This document shows positions 4,180-27,439 of a stretch of 64,000 nt of DNA, in pieces (within the stretch, counting starts at the first letter, position 1; each line of letters starts with the position of its first letter). The stretch spans positions 1-64,000 of the forward strand of contig CAMFKE010000008.1 of the NCBI GenBank assembly GCA_945957395.1, in the 5' to 3' direction. Under the pieces are notes generated by a model. That model was not told where the DNA came from. It did no database searches and saw only the letters and a list, made by a program, of their open reading frames with translations. This DNA is from an uncultured Opitutia bacterium (GTDB lineage: Bacteria; Verrucomicrobiota; Verrucomicrobiia; Opitutales; UBA953). Made by a program: the position numbers and the translations under genes.

Positions 4180-4263
4180 GTTTCAAGTTTCAGGATTTCA
4201 GTTTTCAGCGAACGCAGGCTTCCGCTGACCGCGCATGAAACCTCAAACTTGAAACCGAAAACA
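4180..4263. repeat. Inverted heptad element (GTTTCAA / TGAAACC)
   Basis: The left arm (4180-4207) has four 7-bp units with consensus GTTTCAR. The right arm (4236-4263) has four units with consensus TGAAACC, the reverse complement of the left word. A 28-base unique centre separates them. The element fills the gap between pheA and the MCE gene and ends 11 bases before the MCE start codon, so it must lie in that gene's leader. The same word family recurs at 8115-8191. Confidence 0.88.
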
Positions 4264-9143: not shown

Positions 9144-9192
9144 GATCCGAGTTTTCTGTTTTCGGTTTTCAGTGAAGTATCCGTGATCCGAT
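9144..9192. repeat. In-phase heptad tract between sucC and sucD
   Basis: Seven consecutive 7-bp units in one phase: three GTTTTCN units (9151-9171) and ATCCGNN units at both ends (9144-9150 and 9179-9192). The last unit ends on the first base of the sucC stop codon. The tract therefore occupies nearly the whole intercistronic gap of a conserved operon. Confidence 0.85.
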
Positions 9193-22165: not shown

Positions 22166-22270
22166 GGAGGAGGGGGAGGTGAGAGAGGAAAGGGGAAAGA
22201 GGAAAGGGGAGGCGTGATTCGGTGATTCAGTTTTCGGTTTTCGGCGAAGGAGCCGAATCACCGAATCACG
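22166..22270. repeat. Long in-phase heptad tract with inverted arms
   Basis: Fifteen 7-bp units in one phase. The first half is purine units (GGAAAGG, GGAAAGA). The second is TGATTCG and GTGATTC, then AGTTTTC and GGTTTTC, an 8-base turn, then ATCACCG and AATCACG, which are inverse complements of the TGATTCG arm. It fills the gap between the nucleotidyltransferase and the kinase and contains the leader of the kinase gene, where a ribosome-binding site would be expected. Confidence 0.85.
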
Positions 22271-22309
22271 CCGGACGGCTGCGGCGCGTGCGGGCGCCGC
22301 AGAGCCGCA

Positions 22310-23375: not shown

Positions 23376-24224
23376 TTACGCGAACTTGGCGATGCGCGCC
23401 TTGATGTCGCCCTTGAGGCGCTCGACATAGGCGATGGTGTACTCGACCACGTCGAGCTTGTCGTCGACGATGAGCGGGGTCAGGTCCATGCCCCACTGCA
23501 GGGCGGTGGCCTTGTCGGAGGAGTGCGAGTCGAAGAAGGTGGCGTTGGCCAGACGGCGGCCGATGACGCCGAGGTCGTAGCGCTTGCCGCCGGTGATCTG
23601 GGAGTCGAACACGCCGTTGAGGGCGCCGGCGAGGTTGGGGAAGGCGGAGCAGTCCATGATCACCTTGTCGGCGTCGAGGAGCCAGTCGAGGTCGCGCCAC
23701 ACTTCGCAGCCGATGACCTTCTTGGGGCGCAGGGAGTGGGGCAGCTTGCGCATGGCGGCGATGGCGCGCAGCGTCACGGCGATGTGCGTGTCGTGCTTGT
23801 CGGCCGGGTTGTGCAGGTAGACGACCTCGGGGCTGGTGGCGGTGAGGATGGCGACGAGGTCTTCGACGACCTGGGCGTTCTTGGCGTCCTTCACTTCCTT
23901 GGAGGAGTAGCCGAGCTGGAACATCGAGGCGTAGTCGCCGACGATGGCGGCCTTGCGCTGTTCGAGGGGGCGCACGGCGGCGATTTCCGCGTCGGAGTAG
24001 TCGGCGTAGATGCCGGTGCGCGAGGAGCCCGCGCCGTCGGTGACGACGACGCCGGAGAACCAGCGGTTCTTGCGGCCGAAGCACTCGGTGATGCCGTGGT
24101 AGGCCATGAACTCGAGGTCATCCTGGTGGGCGCCGATGCCGAGGTGGGTGGTGCGGGCGGCGGCTTCGGAGACGGGGGTGTTGTCCGGGACGAAGATGTC
24201 CGCGTTGGGCTTGTTGAGCTTCAT
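23376..24224 (-). CDS. PIG-L/LmbE family deacetylase
   Basis: A 282-residue zinc-dependent deacetylase. The metal motif AHQDDLEFMAYHG (residues ~32-44) and the second His site HNPADKHDTH near 142 are present. The family removes acetyl groups from GlcNAc-containing substrates (GlcNAc-PI, mycothiol and bacillithiol precursors, chito-oligomers). No signal peptide is seen, so it acts in the cytoplasm. Given the neighbouring NagB and sugar kinases, a role as GlcNAc or GlcNAc-phosphate deacetylase replacing NagA is a reasonable inference. Confidence 0.88.
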   Translation of the reverse strand: MKLNKPNADIFVPDNTPVSEAAARTTHLGIGAHQDDLEFMAYHGITECFGRKNRWFSGVVVTDGAGSSRTGIYADYSDAEIAAVRPLEQRKAAIVGDYASMFQLGYSSKEVKDAKNAQVVEDLVAILTATSPEVVYLHNPADKHDTHIAVTLRAIAAMRKLPHSLRPKKVIGCEVWRDLDWLLDADKVIMDCSAFPNLAGALNGVFDSQITGGKRYDLGVIGRRLANATFFDSHSSDKATALQWGMDLTPLIVDDKLDVVEYTIAYVERLKGDIKARIAKFA

Positions 24225-24233
24225 AGGGTTCTG

Positions 24234-24268
24234 GAGTTGATGGTTGATAGTTGTGAGTTGATAGGGGG
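24234..24268. repeat. Left heptad arm flanking four-helix-bundle gene 1 (GAGTTGA)
   Basis: Five 7-bp units in phase with consensus GAGTTGA/TAGTTGN lie between the PIG-L start and the stop of the four-helix-bundle gene. The complementary word appears in inverted orientation on the other side of that gene (24653-24687). Confidence 0.85.
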
Positions 24269-24274
24269 GGGGCT

Positions 24275-24640
24275 TCAGTTTTCGAGTTTGCGCAGGAGGC
24301 CGTGGAGCATCTTGCGGATTTCGAGCAATTCGGCGTTGAGCGGGGCGTGGGCCTCATCGGGGATGAATCCCAATCGGCGCGCCAACTCGATTTGCGTCTG
24401 AACTTCGTTGGTGGAACCAAGGGCTGTGCGCAGAAAACGAGGGAAGTCGTTGCTGCCGGACCTGCCCTGGCCTTCGGCGATGTTGGAGGGTATGGAGACG
24501 GCGGCGCGTCGAAGTTGGGAGACCAGTCCGAAGGATTCGGAGGAAGGGAAGGATCCGGTCACCCGGTAGATTTCCACGGTCAGCGTCATGGCTTTTTGCC
24601 AGACGATCAGATCGTGGAAATCCCGGATGCTCGTGTCCAT
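24275..24640 (-). CDS. Four-helix-bundle protein, 23S rRNA IVP/S23 family (copy 1)
   Basis: A 121-residue all-helical protein. RDFHDLIVWQKAM at the N-terminus and LRRAAVSIPSNIAEGQGR near residue 48 are the signatures of the S23/IVP family (TIGR02436). This fold is shared with the Avd accessory protein of diversity-generating retroelements; its biochemical role as a solitary protein is unknown. The start at 24640 (MDTSIRDF) avoids translating the repeat. The gene sits between inverted heptad arms inside an amino-sugar operon and is co-directional with it. No rRNA gene is nearby, so it is not an rRNA insert here. Confidence 0.92.
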   Translation of the reverse strand: MDTSIRDFHDLIVWQKAMTLTVEIYRVTGSFPSSESFGLVSQLRRAAVSIPSNIAEGQGRSGSNDFPRFLRTALGSTNEVQTQIELARRLGFIPDEAHAPLNAELLEIRKMLHGLLRKLEN

Positions 24641-24652
24641 CGGTGGCGCTCC

Positions 24653-24687
24653 TATCAACTTTCAGCTGTCACCTCTCAACTGCGACA
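24653..24687. repeat. Right heptad arm flanking four-helix-bundle gene 1 (TNTCAAC)
   Basis: Five 7-bp units in phase (TATCAAC, TTTCAGC, TGTCACC, TCTCAAC, TGCGACA). The consensus is the reverse complement of the left arm word at 24234-24268. It ends six bases before the stop codon of the ROK kinase gene. Confidence 0.85.
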
Positions 24688-24692
24688 AGCGC

Positions 24693-26099
24693 TTAGCGCG
24701 CGGTCGCCGGCAGCGAGGCGGCGGCGACGGCCTGGCCGTGGCGCTTGGAGGCCTCGTCGGGCACGGAGAGGTTGATCTTGAGCTCGGGGAACTCGACGCG
24801 CAGGACCTCGCGGGCCTTGTCGATGATGATGTCGCCGCCCTTGCCGGAGGTGACGCGGCCCATGATGAGCAGCTCGGAGTAGCTGAAGAAGTCGGCGAAG
24901 TGGGCGAGGGTGTAGCCGAAGGCGATACCGATGGCTTCGTACACCTTCACGGCGCGGGGGTCGCCGGCCTTCATGAGCTTCTGCAGGCCTTCGAGCTGCT
25001 CGGGCAGCTTCATGTCCTTGGGCATGTGGATGCCGGCGAGGGGCATGAGGCGGCCGACGCCCTGCTGGGAGAAGTACTGCACGCCGCAGCCGAGGTCGCC
25101 GGACCATTCGTCGGCGGGGCCGTTGGCGCGGTAGTCGACGGGCACGAAGGCGAGCTCGGAGAGCCAGTTGGTCATGCGGCCTTCGGGGTCCACATAGCCG
25201 GCGGCCACGGAGGTGCCCATGGCGATGCCCAGCACGGCGTTCTTGTTCATCGACATCGAGCCGGCGAGGGCGGTGACGTCGCCGTCGTTGATGACTTCGA
25301 AGGGCACGCCGTATTCCTTGGCGATGTCCAGGAACATGTTCTTCACCTTGGACTCGAACACGGACGGGTCGGTGACGCCGCGGAAGAGCGAGGCGGCGCG
25401 GACCTTGTTGTTGATGTACACGCCGGCGGAGGAGCCGCCGATGGCGTCGAGCTTGCGGCCGGCGGGGATGTGCTTGGCGGCGAGGTCGAGGGAGTGCTTG
25501 ATGCCTTCGTACTGGTAGGCGGGGTCTTTCTGGAAGTACGGGTCCCACTTCACTTCTTCGGAGAAGACGACCTTGCCGTCCACGAGCAGGGCGCACTTGC
25601 GGTCGGAGCCGCCGAGGTCGAAGCCGATGCGCACGCCGTCGAGGTTGCGGCCCAGGGGCAGGTGCGAGGCGGATTCCTTGGGCAGGCCGGCTTCGTCGAC
25701 GACGAGGAACTGGGGTCCGGTGTCGAAGAGCTTGGTGACGAAGGCGTAGTCGAAGGCGCGCTCGCCGGCGGGCGAGTAGATGGTCTTGAGCAGTTCGGCG
25801 ATCTCCGGGGCGTACTTGCCGGAGAGGAAGATCTTGTCGCCGCCGCGGCCCCAGATGAGGAACTTGATGATGCGCTCGACGTAGGTGACGGTGTCCACGC
25901 CGTATTCGGAGGCGAGGGAGAACACCTTGACGCGGTAGACGGAGGCGGTGCCGTCGGGGCGCGAGAGGCCGATGGCCAGCGGGGCGGCGTCGGAGGACTT
26001 CTCGGCGGCCTTGTTGTAGGCGCGGTTCCAGAGGGAGGCGGGGACGAACGCCGTGTCGATTTCGGAGACGAACTTGGGCTTGAGGGTGATCTTGGACAT
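24693..26099 (-). CDS. ROK-like / hexokinase-type sugar kinase
   Basis: A 468-residue actin-fold kinase. VRIGFDLGGSDRKCALLVDG near residue 180 is the phosphate-1 loop, INDGDVTALAGSM near 300 the catalytic Asp region, and LGIAMGTSVAAGYVD the second phosphate loop. It is longer than a typical ROK kinase (about 300) because of a ~175-residue N-terminal extension of unknown function. In this cluster it would phosphorylate the hexosamine or its N-acetyl form before NagB. The start is MSKITLKPKF at 26099. Confidence 0.82.
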   Translation of the reverse strand: MSKITLKPKFVSEIDTAFVPASLWNRAYNKAAEKSSDAAPLAIGLSRPDGTASVYRVKVFSLASEYGVDTVTYVERIIKFLIWGRGGDKIFLSGKYAPEIAELLKTIYSPAGERAFDYAFVTKLFDTGPQFLVVDEAGLPKESASHLPLGRNLDGVRIGFDLGGSDRKCALLVDGKVVFSEEVKWDPYFQKDPAYQYEGIKHSLDLAAKHIPAGRKLDAIGGSSAGVYINNKVRAASLFRGVTDPSVFESKVKNMFLDIAKEYGVPFEVINDGDVTALAGSMSMNKNAVLGIAMGTSVAAGYVDPEGRMTNWLSELAFVPVDYRANGPADEWSGDLGCGVQYFSQQGVGRLMPLAGIHMPKDMKLPEQLEGLQKLMKAGDPRAVKVYEAIGIAFGYTLAHFADFFSYSELLIMGRVTSGKGGDIIIDKAREVLRVEFPELKINLSVPDEASKRHGQAVAAASLPATAR

Positions 26100-26130: not shown

Positions 26131-26170
26131 AGGGGCGAAGGGGCTGAGGCACAAAGGCACAGAGGGGCCA
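26131..26170. repeat. Left octad arm flanking four-helix-bundle gene 2
   Basis: Five 8-bp units in phase with consensus AGGNNCNA (for example AGGCACAA and AGGCACAG). The unit length is eight, not seven. The complementary words CTTTGTGC/CTTTGTGG occur in inverted orientation beyond the gene, at 26647-26692. Confidence 0.82.
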
Positions 26171-26193
26171 CCGTTGCTTCCGCTTTTCAGCGG

Positions 26194-26556
26194 TTATCGC
26201 TCGAGGCTTCGGATGAGGGCGCTCAGCAGGCGTTCCACTTCGCGCGACGCAGCGTCGAAACGCATGTGCGATCCAGTGTCGAGGTATCCGACTCGCAAGG
26301 CGATTTCCAGTTGTGTCTGAAGCTCGTTCAGCGAGCCCGAGGCGACATGCAGGAATCGGATGTAGTCGGCGGTGGAGTGGCGTCCGTAGCCTTCGGCGAT
26401 ATTGGAGGGGATTGAAACGGCGGCGCGCTTGATTTGGGAATCCAGACCGAAGCGCTCATTCGCCGGCAGGTTGTCGCATGCCCGATAAACATCCACGACG
26501 AGCTGCATGGCTTTCTGCCACACGATCAGGTCGCGGTATGTTTTGATGTCGGACAT
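26194..26556 (-). CDS. Four-helix-bundle protein, 23S rRNA IVP/S23 family (copy 2)
   Basis: A 120-residue homologue of copy 1. It shares YRDLIVWQKAM and IKRAAVSIPSNIAEGYGR, but the rest is only moderately similar, so the two are not a recent tandem duplication. The start at 26556 (MSDIKTYRD) is the family's normal N-terminus. It lies between the ROK kinase and NagB genes on the same strand, again enclosed by inverted short-period repeats, this time of 8 bp. Function is unknown beyond the family fold. Confidence 0.92.
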   Translation of the reverse strand: MSDIKTYRDLIVWQKAMQLVVDVYRACDNLPANERFGLDSQIKRAAVSIPSNIAEGYGRHSTADYIRFLHVASGSLNELQTQLEIALRVGYLDTGSHMRFDAASREVERLLSALIRSLER

Positions 26557-26563
26557 GCGGTTT

Positions 26564-26692
26564 CGAAGGCTCAAAGGGGCGAAAGGCTCCGGGTTCCAAA
26601 GGTGCCGCACCGATGTCGCGTTTGATTCCGCGGGCGACGGTGCGCTCTTTGTGCCTTTGTGGCCTTTGCCCCTTTGTTCCCCTGCTCTTTTA
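26564..26692. repeat. Right octad arm region flanking four-helix-bundle gene 2
   Basis: Two stretches: 26564-26603, 8-bp units of CNAAGGNN type in direct orientation, and 26645-26692, six 8-bp units around CTTTGTGN/CCTTTGCC in inverted orientation relative to the left arm. The last unit includes the nagB stop codon. A 40-base unique piece separates the two. Confidence 0.78.
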
Positions 26693-27439
26693 GAGTTTGG
26701 ACGCCGCGGCCTTATCGAGGATGAACACGCAGTCCTTGTGCTTCTGCAGCCAGGAGGCCGGCACCTGCTCGGTCTGCGGGCCCTTGATGGACTTGGCGAC
26801 AATCTCGGCCTTGGGTTCGCCCCAGGCGAGCAGGAGCACCTTCTTGGCGTCCAGCACGGTGCCGCAGCCCATGGTCACGGCGTAGTGGGGGACCTTGGCG
26901 AGGTCGCCGAAGAACACGGCGTTGTCCTTGCGGGTGAGCTCGTCGAGGTGCACCTTGCGCGTGCGCGATTCGGCGGAGGAGGGCGGCTCGTTGAAACCGA
27001 TGTGGCCGGTGCGGCCGATGCCCAGCAGCTGGATGTCGATGCCGCCGGCGGCCTTGATGGCCTCTTCGTACGACTTGCAGTGCGCGTCGATTTCGGCGTC
27101 GGGCAGGGTGCCCAGGGGCACGTGCGTGTTGGCCTTGTCGATGTCGATGTGGTTGAAGAGCTGATCGTTCATGAAGTAACGGTAGCTCTGGTCGTGCGTG
27201 CCGGGCAGGCCGCAGTATTCGTCGAGATTGAACGAGATGACGTTCTTGAAGCTCAGGCCGTTTTCCTTGTGGCGGCGGATGAGCTCCTTGTAGAGGGCGA
27301 TGGGCGTGGAGCCCGTGGCCAGGCCCAGCACGGCGGTCTTGCCGGCTTTGGCGCGTTCGCGGATGAGGGCCTCGAAGGCGTCGGCGGCGACGCGCACGGC
27401 CTCCTCTTTGGTGGTGTAGGTCTGGACGGTGATGGCCAT
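26690..27439 (-). CDS. nagB: Glucosamine-6-phosphate deaminase
   Basis: A 249-residue enzyme converting glucosamine 6-phosphate to fructose 6-phosphate and ammonia. [17 protein letters not shown] (phosphate loop) and [10 protein letters not shown] (general-base Asp) are present. The active-site loop reads [11 protein letters not shown], keeping the His and Glu, but the Asp that precedes Gly-His in E. coli NagB (NDGH) is Thr. First gene of the amino-sugar group and divergent from an AraC regulator, which probably controls it. It feeds amino-sugar carbon into glycolysis. Confidence 0.94.

Follow-up and report, generated by a model that had tools for sequence, protein, structure and literature searches.

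A four-helix-bundle gene between inverted arrays of an 8-bp word as one example of a widespread single-gene cassette

In the 64,000-nt stretch of DNA analysed here (the window), two small four-helix-bundle genes lie in one operon, each between arrays of a short repeated word, which raises the question of whether such a protein and its flanking repeats belong together. The initial annotation had described the second gene as a diverged copy, 1.5 kb from the first and situated between a ROK kinase gene and nagB, and this description was confirmed. Copy 2 (26,194-26,556, minus strand, 120 aa) matches PF05635 (E 1.6e-38; 131.6 bits, curated cut-off 33.8) and the four helix bundle model TIGR02436 (E 1.2e-37; 128.4 bits, cut-off 24) and is thus a member of the S23 family. 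The protein of copy 1 (24,275-24,640, minus strand, PF05635 E 9.5e-40; the start is the first ATG, with an earlier TTG at 24,658) is 50% identical to it, and the ROK kinase gene separates the two.

The upstream (5′) arm of copy 2 (26,634-26,683, minus strand) is an array of a purine-rich 8-bp word on the coding strand that starts a few nucleotides past the nagB stop codon, and the downstream (3′) arm (26,131-26,177, minus strand) carries the same word as its reverse complement; about five 8-bp units can be read by eye in each. With Tandem Repeats Finder, period 8 was obtained at 26,647-26,677 (CTTTGTGC) on the upstream and at 26,147-26,165 (AGGCACAA) on the downstream side, compared to period 7 at 24,236-24,262 beside copy 1, so that the reported difference in period between the copies was reproduced. 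The arms of copy 2 are mutually reverse complementary with a local score of 20.0, which was reached at 1 of 650 displaced control sites. Three pairs of periodic inverted arms were detected in the window, that of copy 2 ranking first; three shuffled versions of the window yielded 0, 1 and 0 pairs. In the predicted RNA fold of the cassette (MFE), the arms form the closing stem, with a z-score of -6.0 over the whole 593 nt that takes in the GC-rich coding part as well. The word of copy 2 was also found in locus L011 (in the same order), in L200 (Nitrospirae) and in L209 (Phycisphaeraceae). A search with PADLOC for known anti-phage defence genes gave no match for three proteins, and such an identity was rejected for them.

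Copy 1 is the weaker case. Its upstream arm (24,651-24,681, minus strand), an array of a 7-bp word of the GTTGATA type, is 31 nt long and 77% complementary to the opposite arm, and the downstream arm (24,235-24,265, minus strand) has period 7. The arm score of 13.5 was reached at 5 of 650 displaced control sites, the detector of paired inverted arms did not pick up this pair in the window, and the gene is among the 93 of 255 without an arm pair at the survey threshold described below. In total, 10 S23 genes were found in the genome from which the window comes, and for eight of these the arms were equalled by at most 5 of 650 displaced control sites; L006 and L008 had no arm pair above the displaced controls. 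The words vary between the S23 genes of this genome.

Both copies interrupt an operon consisting of a nagB-like gene (26,690-27,439, minus strand; Glucosamine_iso, PF01182, 1e-25), the ROK-like kinase gene (24,693-26,099, minus strand; no Pfam match at the default threshold, the name being that of the initial annotation) and a gene at 23,376-24,224 (minus strand), which we take to encode a PIG-L/LmbE-like deacetylase. Among 38 relatives, nagB is present in 22 and adjoins the ROK kinase gene in 14 of these. The gap between the two genes is at most 11 nt in 8 of the 14; in 5 it is a gene-less arm pair of 104-118 nt, with two different words, and in G010 it amounts to 82 nt with no array. The PIG-L-like gene abuts the ROK kinase gene in all four genomes whose fetched stretch extended that far. 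Since these 14 relatives keep the operon without S23 genes, both window cassettes are insertions into a conserved operon, and separate ones. For this reason the argument that two such genes in one operon point to a link between protein and repeats was retained only in part: the link is supported by the larger sample below, but the pair alone is weak evidence. In G015 a different S23 gene directly follows nagB, which is an independent occupation of this junction. Downstream of nagB in G031, nested palindromes were observed (L357), with 9-bp CACAGAGAG arms outside 10-bp CACGGATTA arms.

To place the window in a wider context, 279 S23 loci were collected, 165 of them from the same genome and its Verrucomicrobiota relatives, 34 from viral contigs and 80 from named genomes. 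They contain 287 S23 genes, of which 265 had enough profile coverage and flanks and 255 were left after removal of near-identical copies. Inverted arms of a locus-specific word were found at 162 of the 255 genes, compared to 35 of 2,550 cross-locus flank pairs and, within the same loci, 3 of 650 displaced sites; in direct orientation, the flanks match at 30 of the genes. The 93 genes with an arm score below 14 were excluded from the tests of word, period and copy number. Arms are present at 6 of 9 genes of the window's genome, 82 of 143 of other Verrucomicrobiota, 55 of 78 of named genomes and 19 of 25 of viral contigs; according to the record titles, the arm-positive taxa include Nitrospirae, Planctomycetes, SAR324, Bacteroidetes, Clostridia, Acidobacteria, Gemmatimonadetes, Proteobacteria, Hydrogenedentota and Paceibacterota. 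Of the 162 genes, 136 have a purine-rich 5′ arm, and the arms lie near the gene, with a median spacing of 28 nt to the start codon and 18 nt to the stop codon. Among the Verrucomicrobiota genomes sampled, 220 of 288 contain S23 genes. A phylum-wide search with one 22-nt array pattern gave matches in 3 of 288 genomes, with an S23 gene at none of the 14 distinct loci. For 12 named S23 loci searched with Rfam, no rRNA match was obtained and a location in rRNA was rejected. Copy 2 is one example of a single-gene cassette that is widespread, measures about 0.5 kb and consists of a 5′ arm, an S23 gene and a 3′ arm.

A simple composition score assigned a coding strand to both neighbours at 107 of the 255 loci; applied to the S23 genes themselves, it was right for 250 of 255. 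The S23 strand agrees with co-directed neighbours in 87 of 93 cases and is opposed in 6, which is consistent with expression of the S23 gene through read-through from the host operon.

Gene and arms behave as one unit: they are jointly missing from the orthologous junction of relatives, replaced together at one site in sister species and duplicated together. Replacement was followed at five sites (A-E) in genus g3. At site A, a GATAACT cassette is present in G002 and G018 and a GAATAAT cassette in G006; the proteins are 57-59% identical, and the host flanks of G002 and G006 about 97%. At site D, the word is GCTTAAA in four genomes and AAAGATTA in G014, with proteins 59-61% identical, and the neighbouring genes resemble atpA and atpG by eye. 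Sites B and C, where the words were read by eye, behave in the same way. At site E, word and protein are common to all three genomes (89-93% protein identity). Over these sites, proteins that are at least 70% identical share the word and those at most 66% identical do not, and in each swap the gene and both arms were exchanged together. In G010, which has no S23 gene, a 2.3-kb segment of different DNA (L397, G010:C17), containing ORFs of 492 and 291 codons, lies exactly at the site D junction, and gene-less arrays of the site D word are dispersed at four places. This genome also contains a dispersed repeat of about 40 bp (80-90% identical, a dozen or more places), with matches to L361 near 9,144-9,186.

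A recent duplication was observed in G031, where two S23 genes (L011 and L031) are 95% identical over 372 nt at non-homologous sites and the homology stops in the arrays. Two cassettes with genes of a second family, GxxExxY (e5 and e6), match at 95% identity over 465 nt, from one arm to the other. Thus, both pairs present the same unit at several non-homologous sites, as is expected for transposons and MITEs. A decayed element consisting of the arms and only the first part of an S23 gene was found as well. Regarding target-site duplications, the junctions of relatives are too diverged for base-by-base alignment and the duplicates end in arms, with none clear. In a 12.5-kb hot spot of G031 (L369, G031:C92:1-12500), six arm pairs were counted, and one S23 gene, two GxxExxY genes, one decayed S23 gene and composite gene-less elements are located there.

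Furthermore, 31 gene-less arm pairs were detected in 634 kb, the total length of stretches selected around these genes with overlapping parts counted; one pair falls in a run of N and is spurious. When gene-less pairs were compared with other full elements of the same genome, the word was common in 3 of 31 cases with 1.3 expected, a count from which the spurious pair and another that had no testable partner were excluded and to which two pairs from nagB-ROK junctions were added. A gene-less pair of the window at 22,211-22,272 (unstranded; GGCGTGATTCGGTGATTC, 26-nt loop), located between two genes, has a word that matches the S23 cassette L007 on another contig with a score of 20.0, which was reached in none of 300 element sets from other genomes. 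Elsewhere in the window, a weak gene-less period-7 arm pair (GTTTCAAGTTTCAGG, 35-nt loop) lies at 4,180-4,255, and the edge (1-53) consists of 7.6 perfect copies of GTGGAAG with no gene connected.

The relation of word to protein was determined over pairs of the 162 arm-bearing loci, with the count at 50% identity and above limited to pairs with non-homologous far flanks. Below 40% protein identity, about 1% of the pairs share the word (11 of 1,000 below 20%, then 21 of 1,445 and 46 of 4,205 in the next two bins). The share rises to 125 of 5,218 at 40-50%, 64 of 1,062 at 50-60%, 17 of 59 at 60-70%, 5 of 7 at 70-80% and 3 of 3 above 80% (8 of 10 above 70%). With one arm set reversed in orientation as a control, word sharing was 0-2%. 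The claim that the protein is linked to its flanking repeats is supported by these pairs: at 50% identity or more, the word is common to 89 of 1,131, compared to 30.0 ± 6.1 (maximum 54) after permutation of arms within GC quartiles, and none of 2,000 permutations was as high. Base composition as the source of word sharing was rejected by this permutation. In word-sharing pairs at 50-65% identity, the match at four-fold sites is 0.28-0.31 compared to 0.27-0.28 expected by composition, i.e., these sites are saturated; recent descent therefore does not account for the shared word and was rejected as its sole cause.

A confident period could be assigned to 148 of the 162 S23 loci (14 without), and it is 7 in 114 and 8 in 28 of them; these 142 proteins with period 7 or 8 were used for a tree, which has few columns for its size. 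The period changes 18 times on this tree compared to a mean of 25.8 after shuffling, with none of 500 shuffles as low, and the starred branches force at least five changes. In the tabulation of clade against period that the initial annotation had proposed, the period thus correlates with the S23 tree, and the lack of correlation that it had named as contrary evidence was not seen. S23 period is clustered by clade yet labile, a clade tendency rather than a fixed code.

GxxExxY proteins (PF13366/TIGR04256) are unrelated to S23 and have the same cassette architecture. Seven were found in the genome of the window, and the family is present in 19 of 38 relatives; none was found in viral contigs scanned with one GxxExxY protein. 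From 49 loci (L325, a partial match, was excluded), 44 non-redundant genes with flanks remained after filtering. Inverted arms flank 24 of the 44, compared to 1 of 47 displaced sites, and in 14 of the 24 the period is confident: 8 in four, 9 in seven, 10 in three and 7 in none. For period 7, the difference from S23 (114/148 versus 0/14) gives a Fisher value of 9e-9, which is nominal as the GxxExxY sample comes from relatives only and includes related genomes. Since both families occur in the same genomes, a genome effect on the period is removed. The suggestion of a protein-specific unit length accordingly holds for the difference between families and as the clade tendency on the tree, but not as a constant within S23. 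At L329 and L385, complete gene-less palindromes instead of single arms lie on either side of the GxxExxY gene, a composite arrangement.

Array length is narrowly distributed, with a peak at 30-33 nt for 231 S23 period-7 arrays. When units with at most two mismatches are counted, these arrays comprise 92 runs of five, 57 of four and 14 of six, and 42 GxxExxY arrays comprise 21 of two units, 20 of three and one of four. With one mismatch allowed, the S23 mode is four (three for downstream arms), and with three mismatches it is five on both sides. We read the S23 arrays as about five word cores, a sharp count of five hinging on the mismatch tolerance. For the PDB relatives of copy 2, 2GSC and 2RLD, five chains are listed in each, and the S23 protein of Xanthomonas is described as a homopentamer of toroidal shape (PMC4990558). 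That five words face five subunits is a coincidence worth testing and not a proof.

Taken together, both the word and its length follow the protein lineage, and word counts per array fall in a narrow range that is not the same in the two families. This covariation across many bacteria suggests, without proving it, that the protein reads the array. In the mechanism that we propose, each subunit of the S23 homopentamer would bind one word of its own array, and about five words would thus wrap one ring. TRAP, which binds spaced triplets, offers a likeness. In the host transcript, the arms can form a long stem by base pairing, and the probable target of the protein would be this RNA or else the equivalent DNA in single-stranded or cruciform form. 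Binding might mark or protect the cassette and make it less harmful to the operon; the way in which it would bring a benefit (stability, isolation from the operon, spread) is a conjecture. Those rRNA intervening sequences that contain an S23 ORF would be this cassette at a site within 23S rRNA. To this mechanism as a whole, a cassette with five tandem words as the binding site of its pentameric protein and with binding and mobility as inferred parts, we assign a probability of about 0.45. Several observations stand against it: the strict copy-number mode at one mismatch is 3 to 4 and not 5, 93 of 255 genes are armless at the threshold, 998 of 1,062 pairs at 50-60% identity do not share a word, the period is labile (18 changes), and the word sharing of gene-less pairs is close to expectation (3/31 versus 1.3). 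In addition, it has been suggested that the S23 protein of the Coxiella intervening sequence is not made in vivo (PMC4990558).

A broader form of this reading is tentative, and we hold it possible rather than probable. Each small protein of a portable cassette would bind an array built from its own word. Unit length would depend on the family, with 7-8 nt for the helical bundle of S23 and 8-10 nt for the nuclease-like fold of GxxExxY. Word count would depend on the oligomeric state, with about five for the pentamer of S23 and about three for GxxExxY, for which a trimer is predicted. Words diverged between clades would be orthogonal within a genome, and rRNA intervening sequences, heptamer arrays and many bacterial palindromes would form one system.

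Among the rival explanations, one does without recognition: the arms would be neutral or selfish palindromes, made uniform within an arm by replication slippage and between arms by template switching, and their drifting word would be co-inherited and swapped with the gene as a block. The match of left and right arm in gene-less pairs too, the frequent change of period, the same-site swaps and the mostly local words (3 of 31 gene-less pairs) fit such a process. It is nevertheless doubtful, as words remain alike despite the saturated four-fold sites of their genes, two families in the same genomes differ in unit length and copy number, and slippage alone should give a falling length distribution instead of a sharp peak at 30-33 nt. 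If only the pairing mattered, RNase III would cut the stem in the transcript as in 23S rRNA intervening sequences, and an insertion between cistrons would thereby be tolerated. This explains why the arms are inverted and not direct (162 versus 30 of 255), why the MFE structure closes on them and why co-orientation prevails (87 to 6), and in the Coxiella sequence an S23 ORF occurs together with tandem heptamers upstream, a terminal stem of 28 bp and excision by RNase III (PMC4990558). We consider it unlikely as the full account, since any complementary arms would suffice and tandem words, a fixed unit length, about five copies and cross-phylum words are not predicted. Word-specific binding by the encoded protein was proposed as the simplest account because the stem alone leaves the family-specific length of the tandem words, their limited copies and their likeness across saturated divergence unexplained.

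In the case of a classical transposon, the arms would be terminal inverted repeats for a trans-acting transposase, the gene-less pairs MITEs, and S23 and GxxExxY passengers or accessory factors. The duplicates at non-homologous sites and the gene-less and internally decayed copies point in this direction, but there is no common end sequence, the duplicates have no clear target duplication and words are not shared genome-wide, so that we regard this explanation as improbable. Furthermore, the genome of the window (96% complete) gave no match to PF00078 (RVT_1) and none to PF01797 (Y1_Tnp), the two profiles searched; mobilisation by a resident reverse transcriptase or Y1 transposase was thus rejected for it, and neither a DGR reverse transcriptase nor a REP/RAYT (REPtron) system was detected by these profiles. 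Chance or generic low-complexity intergenic sequence is hardly credible. Arrays of short period do abound in the intergenic regions of these genomes, also where neither gene family is present, but the displaced-site and cross-locus controls (162/255 compared to 3/650 and 35/2,550) refute it at this sample size, and the S23 cassettes of the window's genome lie mostly above nearly all displaced controls.

If the proposed binding holds, hundreds of natural variants of a small sequence-reading ring are available, each beside its own target. An array whose word, length and copy number track the protein is a concrete, testable ligand for the S23 family, and rRNA intervening sequences, heptamer arrays and paired tandem-repeat sites would then have one origin. 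MITEs and REPIN-like palindromes likewise are short dispersed intergenic inverted repeats that occur alongside longer gene-bearing forms. The cassettes differ from these in that their arms are locus-specific word arrays with no common end, in a genome without a Y1 match. S23 proteins are described as having no known function (PMC4990558), and in the open-licence literature, outside of which most subscription journals lie, no link of S23 or GxxExxY to the word, length or copy number of flanking arrays was found. The Avd protein of diversity-generating retroelements belongs to the same fold family (PMC10053308), and copy 2 has weak profile similarity to bAvd and Avd. Its score against the Avd equivalog is 28.8 bits, below the cut-off of 80, and the genome differs from such systems by having no reverse transcriptase match.

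The TAACTGA heptamers of Beggiatoaceae, Cyanobacteria and Bacteroidetes resemble the arms as short tandem intergenic heptamers with an unexplained horizontal distribution, but they are direct repeats of one fixed word, with one indirect repeat, and the sections on these repeats do not mention S23 (PMC4679880). In Geobacter metallireducens, predicted sites of global regulators are paired on opposite strands, with four octanucleotides in class 1, three TCTCCGTS[Y] in class 2 and five tandem heptanucleotides in class 3, and a further 49 elements have four heptanucleotides; in the description of these sites, they are read as regulator binding sites and no link to S23 or GxxExxY is made (PMC2700814). 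The closest likeness is to the intervening sequences of 23S rRNA, e.g., in Coxiella burnetii, in which an S23 ORF lies between terminal inverted repeats that form a stem, as in copy 2, and 2-3 tandem heptamers GACAGAT, varying by strain, lie just upstream of the ORF (PMC4990558). This is a single heptamer case in helix 45 of 23S rRNA, presented there without a link to protein specificity (PMC4990558). Copy 2 lies between the ROK kinase gene and nagB and not inside a 23S rRNA gene, and the cassettes of the window and the survey differ from the intervening sequences by their position at operon junctions and by array words on both sides.
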